From Parafannyhessea umbonata (GTDB lineage: Bacteria; Actinomycetota; Coriobacteriia; Coriobacteriales; Atopobiaceae), in assembly GCF_900105025.1 (NCBI RefSeq), contig NZ_LT629759.1, positions 558,001-622,000 on the forward strand: DNA of 64,000 nucleotides, in the 5' to 3' direction. The notes beneath the pieces were generated by a model. The model did no database searches, was not told the origin of the DNA, and was given only the letters and a program-made list of their open reading frames with translations. Within the stretch, counting starts at the first letter, position 1. Each line of letters starts with the position of its first letter. Below are positions 3,730-60,909 of this stretch, piece by piece. A program made the position numbers and the translations under genes.

Positions 3730-5709
3730 CTACTCCAGCTCGAAGGCTCCCGTGTAGAGCTGGTAGTACGTGCCGTGCTGGGCGATCAGCTCGTCGTGGG
3801 TGCCCTTCTCGATGATGCGGCCGTGGTCGAGCACGATGATCACGTTGGAGTTGCGCACCGTGGAGAGCCTGTGCGCAATCACGAACGTGGTGCGTCCGTA
3901 CATGAGGGCGTCCATGCCCTTCTGGACGATCTGCTCGGTGCGGGTGTCGATGGAGGAGGTTGCCTCGTCCAGGATCATGGCAGGGGGGTCGGCTACGGCC
4001 GCGCGTGCGATGGAGAGCAGCTGACGCTGGCCCTGTGAGAGCTGGGTGGCGTTGTCGGTGAGCATGGTCTGGTAGCCGTCGGGGAGGCGACGGATGAAGC
4101 TGTCCGCGCCGGCGAGCTTTGCCGCGCCGATGCACTCCTCGTCCGTGGCGTCCAGGCGCCCGTAGCGGATGTTGTCCATAACGGTGCCGGTGAACAGATT
4201 CACGTCCTGCAGCACGATGCCCAGGGAGCGGCGCAGGTCGCCCTTGCGGATCTTGTTGATGTTGATGCCGTCGTAGCGAATCTTGCCGTCGGCGATGTCA
4301 TAGAAGCGGTTGATGAGGTTTGTGATGGTGGTCTTTCCGGCACCCGTCGCGCCGACGAACGCGACCTTCTGGCCGGGCTTCGCAAAGAGCGAGATGTCGT
4401 GCAGGACGGTGTGGTCCGGCGTGTAGCCGAAGTCGACGTGCGAGAGGCGGATGTCGCCCGCGAGCGGCGTGTACGTGACGCTGCCGTCGTGGTGCGGGTG
4501 CTTCCACGCCCAGGTCTCGGTGCGCTCGACGCGCTCCTCGAGCTCGCCGGCCGCGTTCTTGCGCACGTTCACGAGGGTGACGTAGCCTTCGTCCTCCTCG
4601 GGCTTCTCGTCTATGAGCGAGAAGATCCGTTCCGCACCCGCGAGGCCCATGACCACGAAGTTGATCTGCTGAGACACCTGGCCGATGGAGCCGGCGAAGC
4701 GCTTCGTCATGTTGAGGAACGGCACGACGACGGCGATGGACAGGGCCATGCCGCTGATGGAGGGGTTGGGGAAGCCGGAGGTGAGGAAGGCGACGCCCGC
4801 GAGCGCGACGATGACGTAGGCGAGGTTGCCCATGTTCATGAGGACGGGCATGAGGGTGTTGCCGTAGGTGTTTGCGGTGCGCGACGCCTCGTACAGGGCG
4901 TCGTTCACGGCGTCGAACTCCTCGATGGTCTTGTCCTCGTGCGTGAAGACCTTGATGACCTTCTCGCCGTTCATGGCCTCCTCGGCGAATCCCTCGGTCT
5001 TCGCGAGCTGGATCTGTTGGTCGAGGAAGTAGTGGGCGCTCTTGCCGCCCAGGACGCGCGTTGCGTAGACCATGCAAGAGACCATGGCGAGCACGACGGC
5101 GGACAGCGGGATGGAGTACCACAGCATGATGGCGAGGACGGAGATCATGGCGAAGAGCATCGTGAGCAGGTTGGGCAGCGACTGGCCGATGAGCTGGCGC
5201 AGCGTGTCGACGTCGTTGGTGTAGTGGCTCATGATGTCGCCGTGCTTGTTGGTGTCGAAGTAGCGGATGGGCAGGCTCTCCATGTGGTCGAACATCTCGT
5301 TGCGCACGTGCATGAGCGTGCCCTGGCACACAATGGCGCCAAGCTGCGTGTAGGTGATGTTCGCGGCGAGCGCGACGACGTAGCACGTGATGAGGCCTGC
5401 GGCGACCTGGGCGATCTTGGGTGCGGCACCTGCCCAGTCTCCCGTGGGGAACGCGTGCTGCACGATGTCGATCGCTTGTTGCAGGAAGATGGACGGCACG
5501 GACGCGAGTACGGACGACGCGATGATGCAGGCGACCATGACCGTGGTGTGCACGGGGTAGTAGTGGAACACGGTGTGCAGGACGCGCTTGAACGTGGCGC
5601 CGGGCCGCTGGGAGCCGCGGTGCTCCGAGGCGGGCGTGCTTGCCTGCTGGGACTGCTGCTCGGGGTGCGTGGCCTCGTTCTTCTCGCGAGTCTTGGCGTC
5701 GCTACTCAT
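3730..5709 (-). CDS. ABC exporter half-transporter with catalytically competent ATPase
   Basis: One half of a heterodimeric multidrug/peptide-type exporter (LmrCD/TM287-288 class). A polar N-terminus of about 45 residues is followed by a six-helix membrane domain (about 50-350) and an ATPase domain. The Walker A is GATGAGKTT near residue 451, the signature is LSQGQ near 555, and Walker B is MILDEATSSID, keeping the catalytic Glu. An unusual insertion of about 40 charged residues separates the membrane and ATPase domains. The start overlaps the upstream partner gene by 8 bp. It is the third gene of a marR-ABC-ABC operon, so substrate-responsive control is likely; the substrate is unknown. Confidence 0.92.
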   Translation of the reverse strand: MSSDAKTREKNEATHPEQQSQQASTPASEHRGSQRPGATFKRVLHTVFHYYPVHTTVMVACIIASSVLASVPSIFLQQAIDIVQHAFPTGDWAGAAPKIAQVAAGLITCYVVALAANITYTQLGAIVCQGTLMHVRNEMFDHMESLPIRYFDTNKHGDIMSHYTNDVDTLRQLIGQSLPNLLTMLFAMISVLAIMLWYSIPLSAVVLAMVSCMVYATRVLGGKSAHYFLDQQIQLAKTEGFAEEAMNGEKVIKVFTHEDKTIEEFDAVNDALYEASRTANTYGNTLMPVLMNMGNLAYVIVALAGVAFLTSGFPNPSISGMALSIAVVVPFLNMTKRFAGSIGQVSQQINFVVMGLAGAERIFSLIDEKPEEDEGYVTLVNVRKNAAGELEERVERTETWAWKHPHHDGSVTYTPLAGDIRLSHVDFGYTPDHTVLHDISLFAKPGQKVAFVGATGAGKTTITNLINRFYDIADGKIRYDGININKIRKGDLRRSLGIVLQDVNLFTGTVMDNIRYGRLDATDEECIGAAKLAGADSFIRRLPDGYQTMLTDNATQLSQGQRQLLSIARAAVADPPAMILDEATSSIDTRTEQIVQKGMDALMYGRTTFVIAHRLSTVRNSNVIIVLDHGRIIEKGTHDELIAQHGTYYQLYTGAFELE

Positions 5710-11252: not shown

Positions 11253-12040
11253 CCGACGCAACGCCCATCCAGGCAAGGCCCATCGACCCCGTGCTCCACA
11301 CGCACGACGTCACGGTCGACTACTCGGGCAAGCGCGCACTTAACGAGACGAGCCTCTCGTTCGAGAGCGGAACCGTCACGGCCCTGATAGGGCCGTCCGG
11401 CTGCGGCAAGTCCACGTTCCTGCGCAGCATCAACCTCATGAACAGGGAGATTCCCGGCTGCGTCATCGGCGGCAAGGTCGTGTACCACGACATCAACGTC
11501 AACGCCCGCGGCATCGATACCCTGTGGCTGCGCAAGCGCGTCGGCATGGTGTTCCAGCAGCCAAACCCGTTCCGCAAGTCCATCTACGAGAACATCGCAT
11601 TCGCGCTCAAGAGCCACGGGATGACCAAGCGCTCCGACCTCGACGAGCGCGTCGAGAAGAGCCTGCGCGCCGCCGCCCTGTGGGACGAGGTGAAGGACAA
11701 GCTCCGCGATTCCGCCTATGCACTTTCGGGAGGCCAGCAGCAGCGCCTGTGCATCGCCCGGACGCTGGCGCTCGAGCCGGACGTCGTCCTCATGGACGAG
11801 CCCTGCTCCGCGCTTGACCCCATCGCGACGTTCGCCATCGAGGAGACCATCACCGACATGGCGAGCCGGGGCATCTGCGTCATCATCGTCACGCACAACA
11901 TGCAGCAGGCGAGCCGCGTGTCCAACCGCACGGCATTCTTCCTCATGGGAAGCATGGTAGAGTTCGGCGAAACGCCTCAGATCTTCGGCGCCCCGAAGGA
12001 CCAGCGCCTCAACGACTATCTCAACGGGAGGTTTGGCTAA
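11249..12040 (+). CDS. pstB: Phosphate import ATPase PstB, first copy
   Basis: ATP-hydrolysing subunit of the Pst importer, 263 residues. Walker [10 protein letters not shown], the PstB-typical FQQPNPF, signature LSGGQQQR and Walker [14 protein letters not shown] are all intact. The Cys in the Walker B region is unusual; most PstB, including the next gene, have Thr there. A second pstB follows with one shared base, so the two may form a heterodimer or be used alternately. Confidence 0.94.
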
Positions 12041-15668: not shown

Positions 15669-16019
15669 ATGGGCTGCGCAGATAACGTGGACAAGTGTTG
15701 GGTTACGCTCGAGGGCGGCGGGCGCGTCCTGCGGCAGATGCTATCCTGTCGTAAACGACCGGATGGGAGCATCTTGCGCAGGAACATCATCCCCATAGGC
15801 GACGTTATCGCCGTCAACCAGATGTTGGAGCGGCGGGGCAGCGCGCTTCGCGTCCACATGCACGACGCGTGCGGTGGCCAGTCCTTCTCGCTCCGCGCGG
15901 ACGACGGCACGTCCGCGGACGAGGCCAGTCGCCAGGCGGTGGGGGAGTTCTTCTCTGCCCGCGGACATGCGGTGGAGTTTTCTGCCGGTGGCGGCGACTT
16001 CTGGGCGGTACGCCCATGA
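15669..16019 (+). CDS. Small protein with HDACGGQ motif, unknown function
   Basis: About 116 residues from ATG 15669 (a GTG at 15663 is also possible; no good ribosome site is seen for either). No transmembrane helix or signal peptide. It has Cys at positions 3, 10, 27 and in the motif HMHDACGGQSF; a related RDAC-type family of small Coriobacteria/Clostridia proteins comes to mind, but I cannot confirm it. The last bases overlap the GtrA start (ATGA), so both are probably translated together, 28 bp after the sensor kinase. Confidence 0.55.
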   Translation: MGCADNVDKCWVTLEGGGRVLRQMLSCRKRPDGSILRRNIIPIGDVIAVNQMLERRGSALRVHMHDACGGQSFSLRADDGTSADEASRQAVGEFFSARGHAVEFSAGGGDFWAVRP

Positions 16020-56637: not shown

Positions 56638-57715
56638 CTGTTGTGTGCCAACAGGTTGTTGACACATGACGTGACAAAAGGGGAGGACTCCCCCAAGCTG
56701 TGACTTGTCGAAGGTTGCAGCGAGAGGAGCCCCCCCTTGTTCCAGCATTCTAACTCACGGCTCACGCCCCGCGGGCGGCAGAGGCTCGTCGAGCGCGTCC
56801 GCGCCGGCGAGAGCGTGTCCGCCGTCGCCCGGGAGGCGGGCGTGAGCAGGCAGACGGCCCACAAGTGGATCGCGAGGGCCGAGGCGGGCGAGCCGCTGTC
56901 GGACCGCCGCAGCCGCCCCTCGCGCCTCGCGAGGCTCACGCCCCCCGACGTCGAGGCGAGGGTCGTGGGGGCCCGCCGCGCCCGCCTGCTCGCCCCGCTC
57001 GCCCTCGCCGCCGAGACCGGGGTGCCCGCACGCACCTGCGCCAGGATCGTCGCGCGCAACGGCCTGCCGCGCCTGGCCGACGTCGACCGCGTGACCGGCG
57101 AGCCCAGGAGGCGCGGCCCCGTGACCCCGCGCCGCTACGAGAGGGAGAGGCCCGGCGAGCTCGTGCACGTGGACGTAAAGAAGGTCGCGAGGGTCCCCGA
57201 CGGCGGCGGCTGGAGGGCGCGCGGCGCCGACGCCCTGCGCCACGCCGACTCTGGGGCGGGCACCGCCTGCCTGCACGTGGCGGTCGACGACAGGAGCAGG
57301 GTGGCCTACGCCGAGCTGCTCGGCGACGAGCGCAAGGAGACCTGCGTCGCGTTCATGGGTCGCGCCCGGGACTTCTACCGCGGCCTCGGCGTCGAGGTCG
57401 AGCGCGTGATGACCGACAACGGGCCGGGGTACCGCTCTCGGCTGTTCAACGAGTGGCTCGCGGCGTCCGGCATCGAGCACAGGTACACCAGGCCCTACAG
57501 CCCCTGGCAGAACGGGAAAGTGGAGCGAATGAACAGGACGCTCGCGCAGGAGTGGCAGTACGCGCGCGCCTACGCGAGCGAGGGTGAGAGGGCGGCAGCC
57601 CTCTCACCCTTCATCGACCGCTACAATTGGGCCAGGCCCCACGGCGCCTGCGGCGGCCTCCCGCCGATGTCACGCATCGTCGGTGTAAACAACGTCATGG
57701 CACACAACAGCTAGC
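56633..57715 (+). mobile_element. IS481-family insertion sequence, copy 2
   Basis: Element 56639-57709 (1071 bp), same sequence as copy 1 but inverted relative to it. Flanks are ACTAGC (56633-56638) and GCTAGC (57710-57715), an imperfect 6-bp target copy of the NCTAGN type. The left CTAG includes the TAG stop of the M14 gene. The M14 terminator now lies beyond the element at 57759-57800. Confidence 0.93.
56737..57714 (+). CDS. IS481-family transposase, copy 2
   Basis: 325 residues, identical to copy 1 except the last residue (HNS instead of HNT), because the final codon and the TAG stop are contributed by the flanking target bases. Intact Asp146, Asp227 and Glu263. TTG start. Between the left end and the start there is a hairpin GGGGAGGACTCCCC (near 56680) that may shield the start from read-through transcripts. 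Confidence 0.94.
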   Translation: MFQHSNSRLTPRGRQRLVERVRAGESVSAVAREAGVSRQTAHKWIARAEAGEPLSDRRSRPSRLARLTPPDVEARVVGARRARLLAPLALAAETGVPARTCARIVARNGLPRLADVDRVTGEPRRRGPVTPRRYERERPGELVHVDVKKVARVPDGGGWRARGADALRHADSGAGTACLHVAVDDRSRVAYAELLGDERKETCVAFMGRARDFYRGLGVEVERVMTDNGPGYRSRLFNEWLAASGIEHRYTRPYSPWQNGKVERMNRTLAQEWQYARAYASEGERAAALSPFIDRYNWARPHGACGGLPPMSRIVGVNNVMAHNS

Positions 57716-59377: not shown

Positions 59378-59597
59378 GGGTGCGTCCTTCGTCTTGGGGT
59401 GCGCCTGGTGCGCCGAGTGTGATGCGGTCGCCACTAGCCTACACCATGGCCGGGTGGGTCACGGTTACGTTAAGGGGCTGCACCGGACACCTACGGACGT
59501 CAGTGCCCGCACGTACGTGCATCTGTGCCGTTTGCGGACGAAGTTGTGCCGCTCACGCAAAGGACCACCTATCTGTGTACATTTGCCTGAGGTTGGG

Positions 59598-59603
59598 TAA
59601 TAC
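59598..59603 (+). promoter_or_regulatory. Probable -10 box of the structured RNA
   Basis: TAATAC, with a weak TGTACA 16 nt upstream (59576-59581). Transcription would begin near 59610. The preceding 59435-59575 contains no gene; a 12-bp palindrome GCACGTACGTGC lies at 59509-59520. Confidence 0.45.
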
Positions 59604-59609
59604 TTGCAG

Positions 59610-59975
59610 TGAAAAGAAAAAGCCGCGCGGAAACCTATCGGCGGCCGGACAGGGAGGTGATGCCAGTGAACAGTGAAGAGTGTTTTACCGGGTCCTTCGC
59701 GAACGGCATCGCGCGTCCCGTCTTAGCCTAGCGGCCGGCAGTATCGGCCAACGTCAGCGGATCGGATTCGCAAAGTCCTAACAGAGACAGACGGCAGAAC
59801 CGGCCGTTCGCGAAAGTGACCAGAACGCCACCCGATGAGGCGTTGCGAGTCACCGCACGTTCCCTAGTACGAGGGCATTGCCCAGCAGGGCGTGCCCGAG
59901 CCAAGGGGGAGAGTCCAAAGTACCAGCAAGAGTAGTTACCCCTCGGGAGGACGGCCGAAAGGCCGTCCTCCTTTT
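59610..59975 (+). ncRNA. Large structured non-coding RNA with intrinsic terminator
   Basis: About 365 nt in an 880-bp gap without genes. Structure seen directly: TTCGCGAACGGC (59696-59707) pairs perfectly with GCCGTTCGCGAA (59803-59814); local hairpins GGCCG/CGGCC (about 59733-59748), ACGCC/GGCGT (59825-59843), and GGGCA..TGCCC with inner GCCC-AGCA-GGGC (59873-59897); and a perfect 11-bp GAAA-loop terminator with TTTT at the end. Near the 5' end GGAGGTGAT matches the 16S anti-Shine-Dalgarno. It does not fit RNase P, tmRNA or SRP RNA. The raiA RNA motif of Firmicutes and Actinobacteria is the best guess for a family, held with low confidence. Confidence 0.75.
59946..59975 (+). terminator. Terminator of the structured RNA
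   Basis: GGAGGACGGCC (59946-59956), tetraloop GAAA, GGCCGTCCTCC (59961-59971), then TTTT. Perfect 11-bp stem with a GNRA loop. Confidence 0.93.
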
Positions 59976-60255: not shown

Positions 60256-60909
60256 ATGGACATCGATACGAACGAGAGGCCCGAGATCACCTATCGGCCT
60301 TTCACCGAGGCGGACTTCGATGCGGTCGCAAAGGTCTGCGCTCGCACATGGGCGTCCGACGTCGAGGGCGTGTACGACCGCATAACGTTCGGAAGGGTAC
60401 TGACGGCGGGCTCGCTCAAGCGCTCGCAGTTCTCGTTCGTGGCACAGCAGGGCATCAAGGTCGTAGGGGCCTGCTTCGGAGGCTTCACGACAGATGGCGC
60501 CATCATCGTGAACGAGCACTGGGAGCAGCGCTTCAAGGAGCTCATGGTGCCCGCGCGCAAGCGTGCGAAGATCGGCGGTCCGTCCGTGGAGGAGCTGCTG
60601 TTTAGCCGCCTGCGCATGTACACTACGGCGGACGTGTTCATTTCCCGCGGGTACAGCAACGCGGACGCGGAGCTGAACCTCTGCGTCGTGGACCCCGCCG
60701 CGCGCAACCAGGGCATAGGCTCGGCCATGCTGGAGGAGGCGGTCATGCGCTTCTGCGAGCACGGCGCCCGCGGGTTCTTCACGATGCTCACGAAGAACTC
60801 CGACTGCCAGTTCTCTGAGCGTGCGGGTCTGAAGCTCATCCAAGAGAAGCGTGGCGTGTACGGGGACCCGAACGCGGGCGTAATCTACCTGTACGGCAGG
60901 CGCCTGTAG
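60256..60909 (+). CDS. GNAT-family N-acetyltransferase
   Basis: 217 residues. The acetyl-CoA motif is DPAARNQGIGSAMLEEAV near residue 150, preceded by ELNLCVV and followed by FFTMLTKNSDCQFSERAGL, the usual motif B region. Substrate unknown. ATG 60256 is preceded by GAAGCTGCGAGG. Followed by a minus-oriented GGGCGAGAAGGGC motif and the nucleoid-associated protein gene. Confidence 0.88.
   Translation: MDIDTNERPEITYRPFTEADFDAVAKVCARTWASDVEGVYDRITFGRVLTAGSLKRSQFSFVAQQGIKVVGACFGGFTTDGAIIVNEHWEQRFKELMVPARKRAKIGGPSVEELLFSRLRMYTTADVFISRGYSNADAELNLCVVDPAARNQGIGSAMLEEAVMRFCEHGARGFFTMLTKNSDCQFSERAGLKLIQEKRGVYGDPNAGVIYLYGRRL

Follow-up and report, generated by a model that had tools for sequence, protein, structure and literature searches.

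A structured RNA family of Coriobacteriales with a conserved mini-ORF and a candidate translation-gated switch

The structured RNA at positions 59610-59975 of the window (the whole 64,000-nt stretch of Parafannyhessea umbonata DNA analysed here) is best read as a bistable, ORF-bearing regulatory RNA gated by translation, a reading to which we assign a probability of about one half. It is an apparently free-standing RNA gene of ∼360 nt, and its family, which we divide into type I (that of the window) and type II, spans two bacterial families of one order and is absent from Rfam 15. Comparison of homologues shows the family, its helices, the conservation of a short ORF, and the lack of a fixed neighbour. 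The family and the ORF are well supported at the level of sequence, from which we infer expression, translation, switching, and any target in trans. At least 124 genomes of the order carry this RNA (52 with type I and 72 with type II copies, weak matches excluded), which makes it a test case for folding coupled to the translation of a tiny ORF outside any operon, with competing helices that are short, defined, and directly mutable.

Layout of the RNA gene and comparison with Rfam

A structured RNA gene lies at about 59610-59975 on the plus strand, as are all features below unless stated, and the observation of a large structured RNA here by an earlier note on this DNA holds. Its predicted fold energy is −149.3 kcal/mol (z = −3.44), a value that none of 100 dinucleotide shuffles reaches, and its helices carry double changes in homologues. 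The opposite strand also folds well (z = −2.88, 1 of 100 shuffles as low), so the strand is not set by energy alone; the ORF, the promoter-like element, and the terminator set it as plus. Transcription of 59610-59975 is presumed from the sequence. The promoter-like TAATAC of the earlier note is indeed present at 59598-59603 as a −10-like element, and by eye TATAGT/TATNAT-like hexamers occupy the same place in many homologues; a sigma-70 consensus scan of the window returned no promoter at the RNA locus and did not pick up TAATAC. A 5′ hairpin, P1 (GCCGC...GCGGC, 59622-59645), was recognised by eye, and at its position many homologues appear by eye to have hairpins with other stem sequences, e.g., GTCGC..GCGAC.

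At the 3′ end, the GAAA-loop terminator that had been called perfect is exact at 59946-59975 (GGAGGACGGCC-GAAA-GGCCGTCCTCC-TTTT). A consensus terminator scan, which requires at least five T in eight, found none at the locus; a GC-rich stem with a T run lies 3′ of 50 of the 54 scored type I copies, compared with 3/54 when shuffled. Upstream of the terminator is a 3′ box, GAGTCCAAAG (59911-59920), identified by motif counts in copies of both subtypes. The motif is present in 28/54 scored type I copies (1/54 shuffled) and in 32/37 type II copies (0 shuffled), and it is absent or altered in 26 type I copies.

The gap that holds the RNA is bounded by a DUF1846 gene on the minus strand, named by Pfam on a near-identical homologue, and by a GNAT-like gene, named from sequence, that starts at 60256. 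Its description as gene-free was not exact, as a 21-codon ORF lies inside it. Elsewhere in the window, 56737-57714 (+) holds a 325-aa ORF that we take to be IS481-type integrase/transposase-like. Over the −35 region of the RNA lies a dyad, GACCAC-N6-GTGTACATTTG (59563-59585), a possible regulator site that matches exactly GWCCACN6GTGKWCATTYG, a pattern drawn from these same promoters. Of 56 type I copies, 25 have the half-site KWCATTT upstream (mean of 1.0 and maximum of 5 in 200 shuffles), the best dyad spacer is 6 nt in 24 of these 25, and 15 of the 56 copies reach 7 of 10 matched. Because the half-site and spacer recur, a specific regulator may control some of the type I copies. The window's own genome has 12 operator matches at ≤2 mismatches (both strands counted, some at the same site) and 3 for the reversed pattern. 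One match with 1 mismatch besides the RNA's own, at G000:C1:1664717-1664739 (L142), lies just upstream of a frame that presumably encodes a DHH/CBS-type pyrophosphatase-like protein. Some g9 genomes have a similar frame (cluster c12) at a distance of 2-5 kb from the RNA.

In size and density of structure, the RNA resembles raiA, RNase P, tmRNA, 6S RNA, and other Rfam families, and it might simply be one of them; we regard this as almost certainly wrong. All 4227 families of Rfam 15 were scanned, and none matches at gathering score anywhere in the window; in a relaxed scan at E ≤ 10, four chance-like matches fell in the gap, raiA was not one of them, and there was no credible match over the RNA. 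The earlier note had put raiA first among the families to consider, a suggestion that falls with the direct test of its covariance model (RF03072), which excludes raiA by finding no match at gathering score at the locus. The genome's one raiA match lies elsewhere (C1:1609208-1609456, 156 bits), and raiA is carried by 94 of 100 genomes searched, its own genome included. The note's dismissal of RNase P RNA, tmRNA, and SRP RNA agrees with the lack of any Rfam match at gathering score. RNase P A (RF00010) has no model match at the locus and matches at C1:705624-705977 (280 bits); tmRNA (RF00023) gives neither a covariance model match nor an ARAGORN call at the locus, and the genome's tmRNA is at C1:2289678-2290041. 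Likewise, 6S RNA (RF00013) has no model match at the locus and a sub-threshold one elsewhere, at C1:1157798-1157964 (31 bits). OLE, ROOL, GOLLD, and SRP RNA are also among Rfam's families, and in the same scan none of their covariance models matches at the locus. No earlier description of the RNA appears among the titles and abstract openings of the literature matches listed, a scope that lies mostly outside subscription papers.

The mini-ORF and the competing helices

The RNA had been taken as non-coding, and its most conserved block proves to be the ribosome-binding site and start codon of a short ORF. The block reads GGRGGYGRUGCC, with the start codon one base later. In the window, the Shine-Dalgarno (SD) block GGAGGTGATGCC occupies 59653-59664 and the ORF, MNSEECFTGSFANGIARPVLA, runs for 21 codons from a GTG start to a TAG stop (59666-59731). 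The pairing counts are based on A3, a simple MAFFT alignment with one row for each of 52 type I copies, and across these rows 8 of the 12 positions of the block do not vary. Across copies the ORF is usually 18-26 codons long, and the 54 scored copies start with GTG (30), ATG (19), TTG (3), or others (2), with no CTG. A stop falls at core position 70-100 (∼30 nt) in 52 of 55 copies in frame vs 15 and 14 in frames +1 and +2. Codon 3 is S or T in 43/54 copies and codon 4 is E or D in 49/54, the serine codons of the ORF start alternate between AGY and TCA, and pN/pS over codons 2-7 is 0.53 in frame vs 0.89 and 0.93 in the other frames, for pairs that are not independent. The exceptions are L028 and the copy at L067:11688, which stop early, L080, which is without an SD, L081, in which the start is shifted by a base, and L085, which reads ATC at the start. 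Judged by its start/stop conservation and pN/pS, the ORF is real and probably translated. By eye, the C-terminal half lies in another frame in 12 type I copies, 10 of which belong to genus g28, with the nucleotides alike and the extent kept. We conclude that the type I ORF is conserved more strictly in its extent than in its C-terminal sequence.

The perfect 12-bp helix between 59696-59707 and 59803-59814 in the earlier note is exact (TTCGCGAACGGC/GCCGTTCGCGAA), and, tested on 52 aligned homologues, it covaries among related genomes as proposed. In this helix, helix A, the five central pairs, which form its lower part, are 96.5% paired with 27 double-change cells in A3, and the upper part is 86.9% paired with 19; in the window row of A3, the upper part is not formed as in the consensus. 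A mutual-information scan of 56 copies, using an aligning model without helix A, placed helix A among the strongest stems. Helix H2 joins 59718-59723 to 59789-59794 (92.3% of cells paired, 12 double-change cells), hairpin H4 (59757-59771) has 94.2% of cells paired and 18 double-change cells, and hairpin H5 (59824-59844), absent or gapped in 8-14 of 52 rows, has six pairs, five of which account for 33 double-change cells. The consensus structure as a whole is 91.8% paired, compared with 85.2% in column shuffles, a kind of control that sequence kinship inflates, and 22-41% with slid partners. Helices that covary and a 3′ box that lies beyond the ORF, together with the terminator and the lack of a fixed neighbour, would suit a trans-acting base-pairing or protein-binding sRNA in which the ORF only protects or matures the RNA and the body is the effector. 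We find this alternative improbable, given that conservation of the start and stop is far stronger in the ORF frame than in either other frame.

The reading as a translation-gated switch draws on a third pairing, helix H1, in which the SD strand 59657-59664 pairs with 59705-59712. This shared segment, GGCATCGC, covers codons 14-16 and serves either as the 3′ strand in H1 or as part of helix A; it has two conserved partners that are mutually exclusive. When a 7-nt stretch of it was slid along the alignment, the SD came first (98.4% paired) and the helix A strand second (86.9%, 19 double-change cells). H1 is paired in 409 of 416 cells (98.3%) in the 52 copies, and covariation support for it is thin because the variation is almost only G-U, with one double-change cell in its eight pairs. 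Its conservation is also partly explained in another way, the 5′ strand being held by ribosome binding as well. However, the GCC at 59662-59664 is invariant in 52/52 rows of A3 and lies outside the sequence complementary to the 16S tail. The signal in single sequences is weak: the best SD complement beats shuffles (p ≤ 0.05) in 22/52 type I and 10/37 type II copies; the shared segment is that complement in 30/52 copies of type I, and the window's own is GGCATTGCC at 59874-59882, not the shared segment.

Predicted folds of the window RNA move between the two helices with its ends. A transcript ending at 59720 has H1 at 0.95, whereas for 59610-59975 the values are 0.91 for helix A and 0.05 for H1; 59610-59964 returns to H1 (0.94, with helix A at 0.02), and 59604-59975 gives helix A at 0.76. 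Forced folds of 59610-59975 reach −147.4 kcal/mol with H1 and −149.3 kcal/mol with helix A, 1.9 apart, and across ends the gap is 0.4-5.1 kcal/mol, with a sign that changes with a few nucleotides. We read this balance as near-degeneracy, and it could instead reflect error in the folding model. Over 52 copies, H1 exceeds 0.5 in 38 early transcripts and in 22 at the longest length, and the parts of helix A exceeding 0.5 rise from 0 to 17 and 18 at the longest length; as modelled, such per-copy folding is not decisive evidence for a switch.

Proposed mechanism and known systems

In the proposed mechanism, H1 would form first in the nascent RNA, pairing codons 14-16 of the ORF with the SD in front of it and holding off translation. 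Once the downstream strand is made, segment 59705-59712 could join helix A instead and so free the SD; it is the order of synthesis that suggests H1 first and helix A later. Ribosomes crossing the ORF would melt H1 and helix A and end at the stop just past them, so the fold would report translation of the mini-ORF. The most likely role would then be that of a regulatory RNA whose fold, in terms of activity, stability, or the state of the 3′ part, reports this translation, with an output that is possibly the 3′ box and 3′ domain and possibly the peptide. Tentatively, we extend this to a translation-sensing class of RNA that is new in the order, in which the ORF would be conserved as a place for ribosomes to start and stop and not for its peptide, and ribosome traffic would toggle the RNA between the SD-locked and the long-range folds, with a separate output in trans.

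SR1 encodes SR1P, a peptide of 39 aa, and rnTrpL comes from the trp attenuator. As far as the available parts of the sources describe SR1/SR1P (PMC8501984) and VcdRP (PMC8672173, in which VcdP has 29 aa), they share with the window RNA a small RNA gene that combines a short ORF with an RNA body having its own role; unlike in these systems as described there, the C-terminal half of the type I ORF is not frame-conserved and the SD can pair with its own ORF. From the available part of its source (PMC7298713), rnTrpL/peTrpL is likewise similar in its short leader-like ORF, alternative folds, and action in trans, but the window RNA has no constant downstream gene. Like the raiA motif RNA, or ModT (RF03072), in the accessible portion of its description (PMC11706538), the RNA is structured, occurs in the same genomes, and has a similar length; it differs in having a separate locus, no visible sequence likeness, and no shared model match. 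As to the traits of a dual-function sRNA, the promoter-like element, the terminator, and the changing neighbours speak for a putative independent transcription unit, and comparison between copies suggests a conserved ORF that may be translated.

Distribution, neighbouring genes, and the type II subtype

A blastn search matched 15 of 100 genomes, the window's own included; the matches in G040 and G031 (L010, L014) are short stretches only, have no R1 model match, and are not the RNA. R1, a covariance model of the core 59650-59844 built from 11 sequences, matches 52 of the 140 genomes of the window's family, in 12 of its 35 genera, and, across the order, 52 of 395 genomes, all within that family; these counts take one genome per species, the filters can lose weak matches, and the model E-values are rough by the tool's own note. 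R2, a second model built from 52 sequences, finds type I in 53/140 genomes of the family, the extra genome being weak, and its two matches in G006 (22.6 bits) may be chance. Type I is present as a single copy in most matched genomes and as two or three copies in a few. Scanning named genomes with a pattern returned 30 contigs, 29 of them labelled Atopobiaceae, Coriobacteri*, Olsenella, Atopobium, Parafannyhessea, or “uncultured actinobacterium”; the 30th (L132) is a chance match. A phage, plasmid, or viral origin was rejected, as blastn against phages and plasmids gave no match and viral contigs contained no exact match to the pattern. One locus, L067 (G109:C1:2019000-2038000), has three type I copies within 11 kb on its minus strand (5016-5204, 11688-11829, and 15748-15948); the middle copy is shortened and is preceded by a tandem array of a short CCCCAACAAAGGGAGCCT-like unit that resembles the family's 5′ hairpin region.

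In home-made gene calls, flanking genes are mostly common within a genus and different between genera, so the RNA looks like a free-standing gene and not a leader. In genus g28 it is usually divergent from a RelA_SpoT small alarmone synthetase (loci with this type of neighbour and others: L068, L070-L073, L092-L094, and L098-L103). In other genera, the divergent neighbour is an ABC-F protein that we take to be EttA-like, a UvrD-like helicase for which “HelD-like” is our own label, or DUF1846; the RelA_SpoT, helicase, and DUF1846 neighbours were identified by Pfam. Several divergent neighbours concern translation or transcription stress, and we draw no function from them because none is constant. 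The combination of SD sequestration, a short leader-like ORF, and a terminator provides the usual parts of an attenuator, and a cis-acting leader (attenuator or riboswitch) for a downstream gene is thus a rival to consider, albeit a very unlikely one. A leader-peptide attenuator controls a co-transcribed downstream gene, and no constant co-directional gene lies downstream; genera differ in the gene that comes next, which often lies on the opposite strand, and the GNAT gene of the window begins 280 bp beyond the terminator.

Type II was found because two weak R2 matches outside the window's family, L138 and L140, held up; two others, L137 and L139, proved to be the starts of ordinary genes, with frames of 235 and 455 codons behind a strong SD. 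In f10, a second family of the order, the two weak R2 matches contain ORFs of 19 codons, MGSEEISAFGPADGAVEAE and MYNDEIANFGPAVRETEAE, in the same setting. When 65 f10 genomes were searched at the DNA level, 34 gave a match at E ≤ 0.01, many of them over short stretches alone, and the SD-ORF layout was seen in 17 of the loci from this search. Type II repeats the plan of type I with other sequences and consists of a 5′ hairpin, an SD, and an ORF that begins mostly M-x-[STI]-E-[ED], with a helix from the ORF codons to a strand ∼100 nt downstream that shows differing sequences and double changes; 14 of 34 predicted pairs are double-changed somewhere in 14 rows. A GATTCCAAAG-like box and a terminator are each found in 32/37 type II copies. 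R3, a model from 14 type II loci, matches 77 of 395 genomes of the order, 40 in f10 and 37 in the window's family; the latter comprise 30 in genus g4 and 2 in g17, two genera without a type I match, and five weak matches below 31 bits (G107, G115, G044, G060, and G162) that may be chance. In 20/37 type II copies, the best SD complement is found 84-90 nt further along, within the hairpin that follows the stop, and in the rest it is elsewhere; the SD-locking partner is not universal in this subtype. Collinsella-1 (RF01700) has no match in 23 distinct type II loci (12 at gathering score, 12 at E ≤ 1), and the same scans gave type II no other Rfam match at gathering score and none credible at the relaxed E.

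The two subtypes together bear on a further rival, an mRNA for a functional micropeptide (M-x-[ST]-[ED]-[ED]-I...) whose structured coding and 3′ regions set the translation level, loosely as in the Downstream-peptide/yfr6 arrangement. In the available part of its source (PMC2864571), that cyanobacterial RNA of ∼250 nt, once predicted to be non-coding, has a short ORF by a structured element; the ORF is supported by synonymous changes, and the structured motif is a 5′ UTR and conserved there only. In the window RNA, unlike in Downstream-peptide/yfr6, the conserved structure overlaps the ORF and also extends beyond its 3′ end, and there is no Rfam match. The SD, the start, and the N-terminal residues are alike in both subtypes, and the movement of serine codons between AGY and TCA also favours a functional peptide. 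So do the type II peptides, which are alike along most of their length, and the in-frame pN/pS, which for type II codons 2-10 is 0.62, beside the type I value given above, vs 0.87-1.35 in the other frames of both subtypes (pairs not independent). Against this stand the type I C-terminal halves in another frame with the nucleotides alike, and a type II Pro-to-Leu change (CCC to CUC, 4/14 rows) that keeps helix A paired, by a compensating change in 2 rows and by G-U in 2. Five of the peptides were searched against Pfam and NCBIfam with no match. On balance we consider the micropeptide explanation somewhat unlikely.

Two observations concern individual type II loci. In L197, a T-box-like match of 40 bits, below the gathering score of 93, lies on the minus strand at 65-293, near the type II copy. 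In L162, L164, and L166, ACG stands where the ORF would start, the context being conserved otherwise, and an in-frame GTG lies inside the SD block of all three; a non-standard start is possible.
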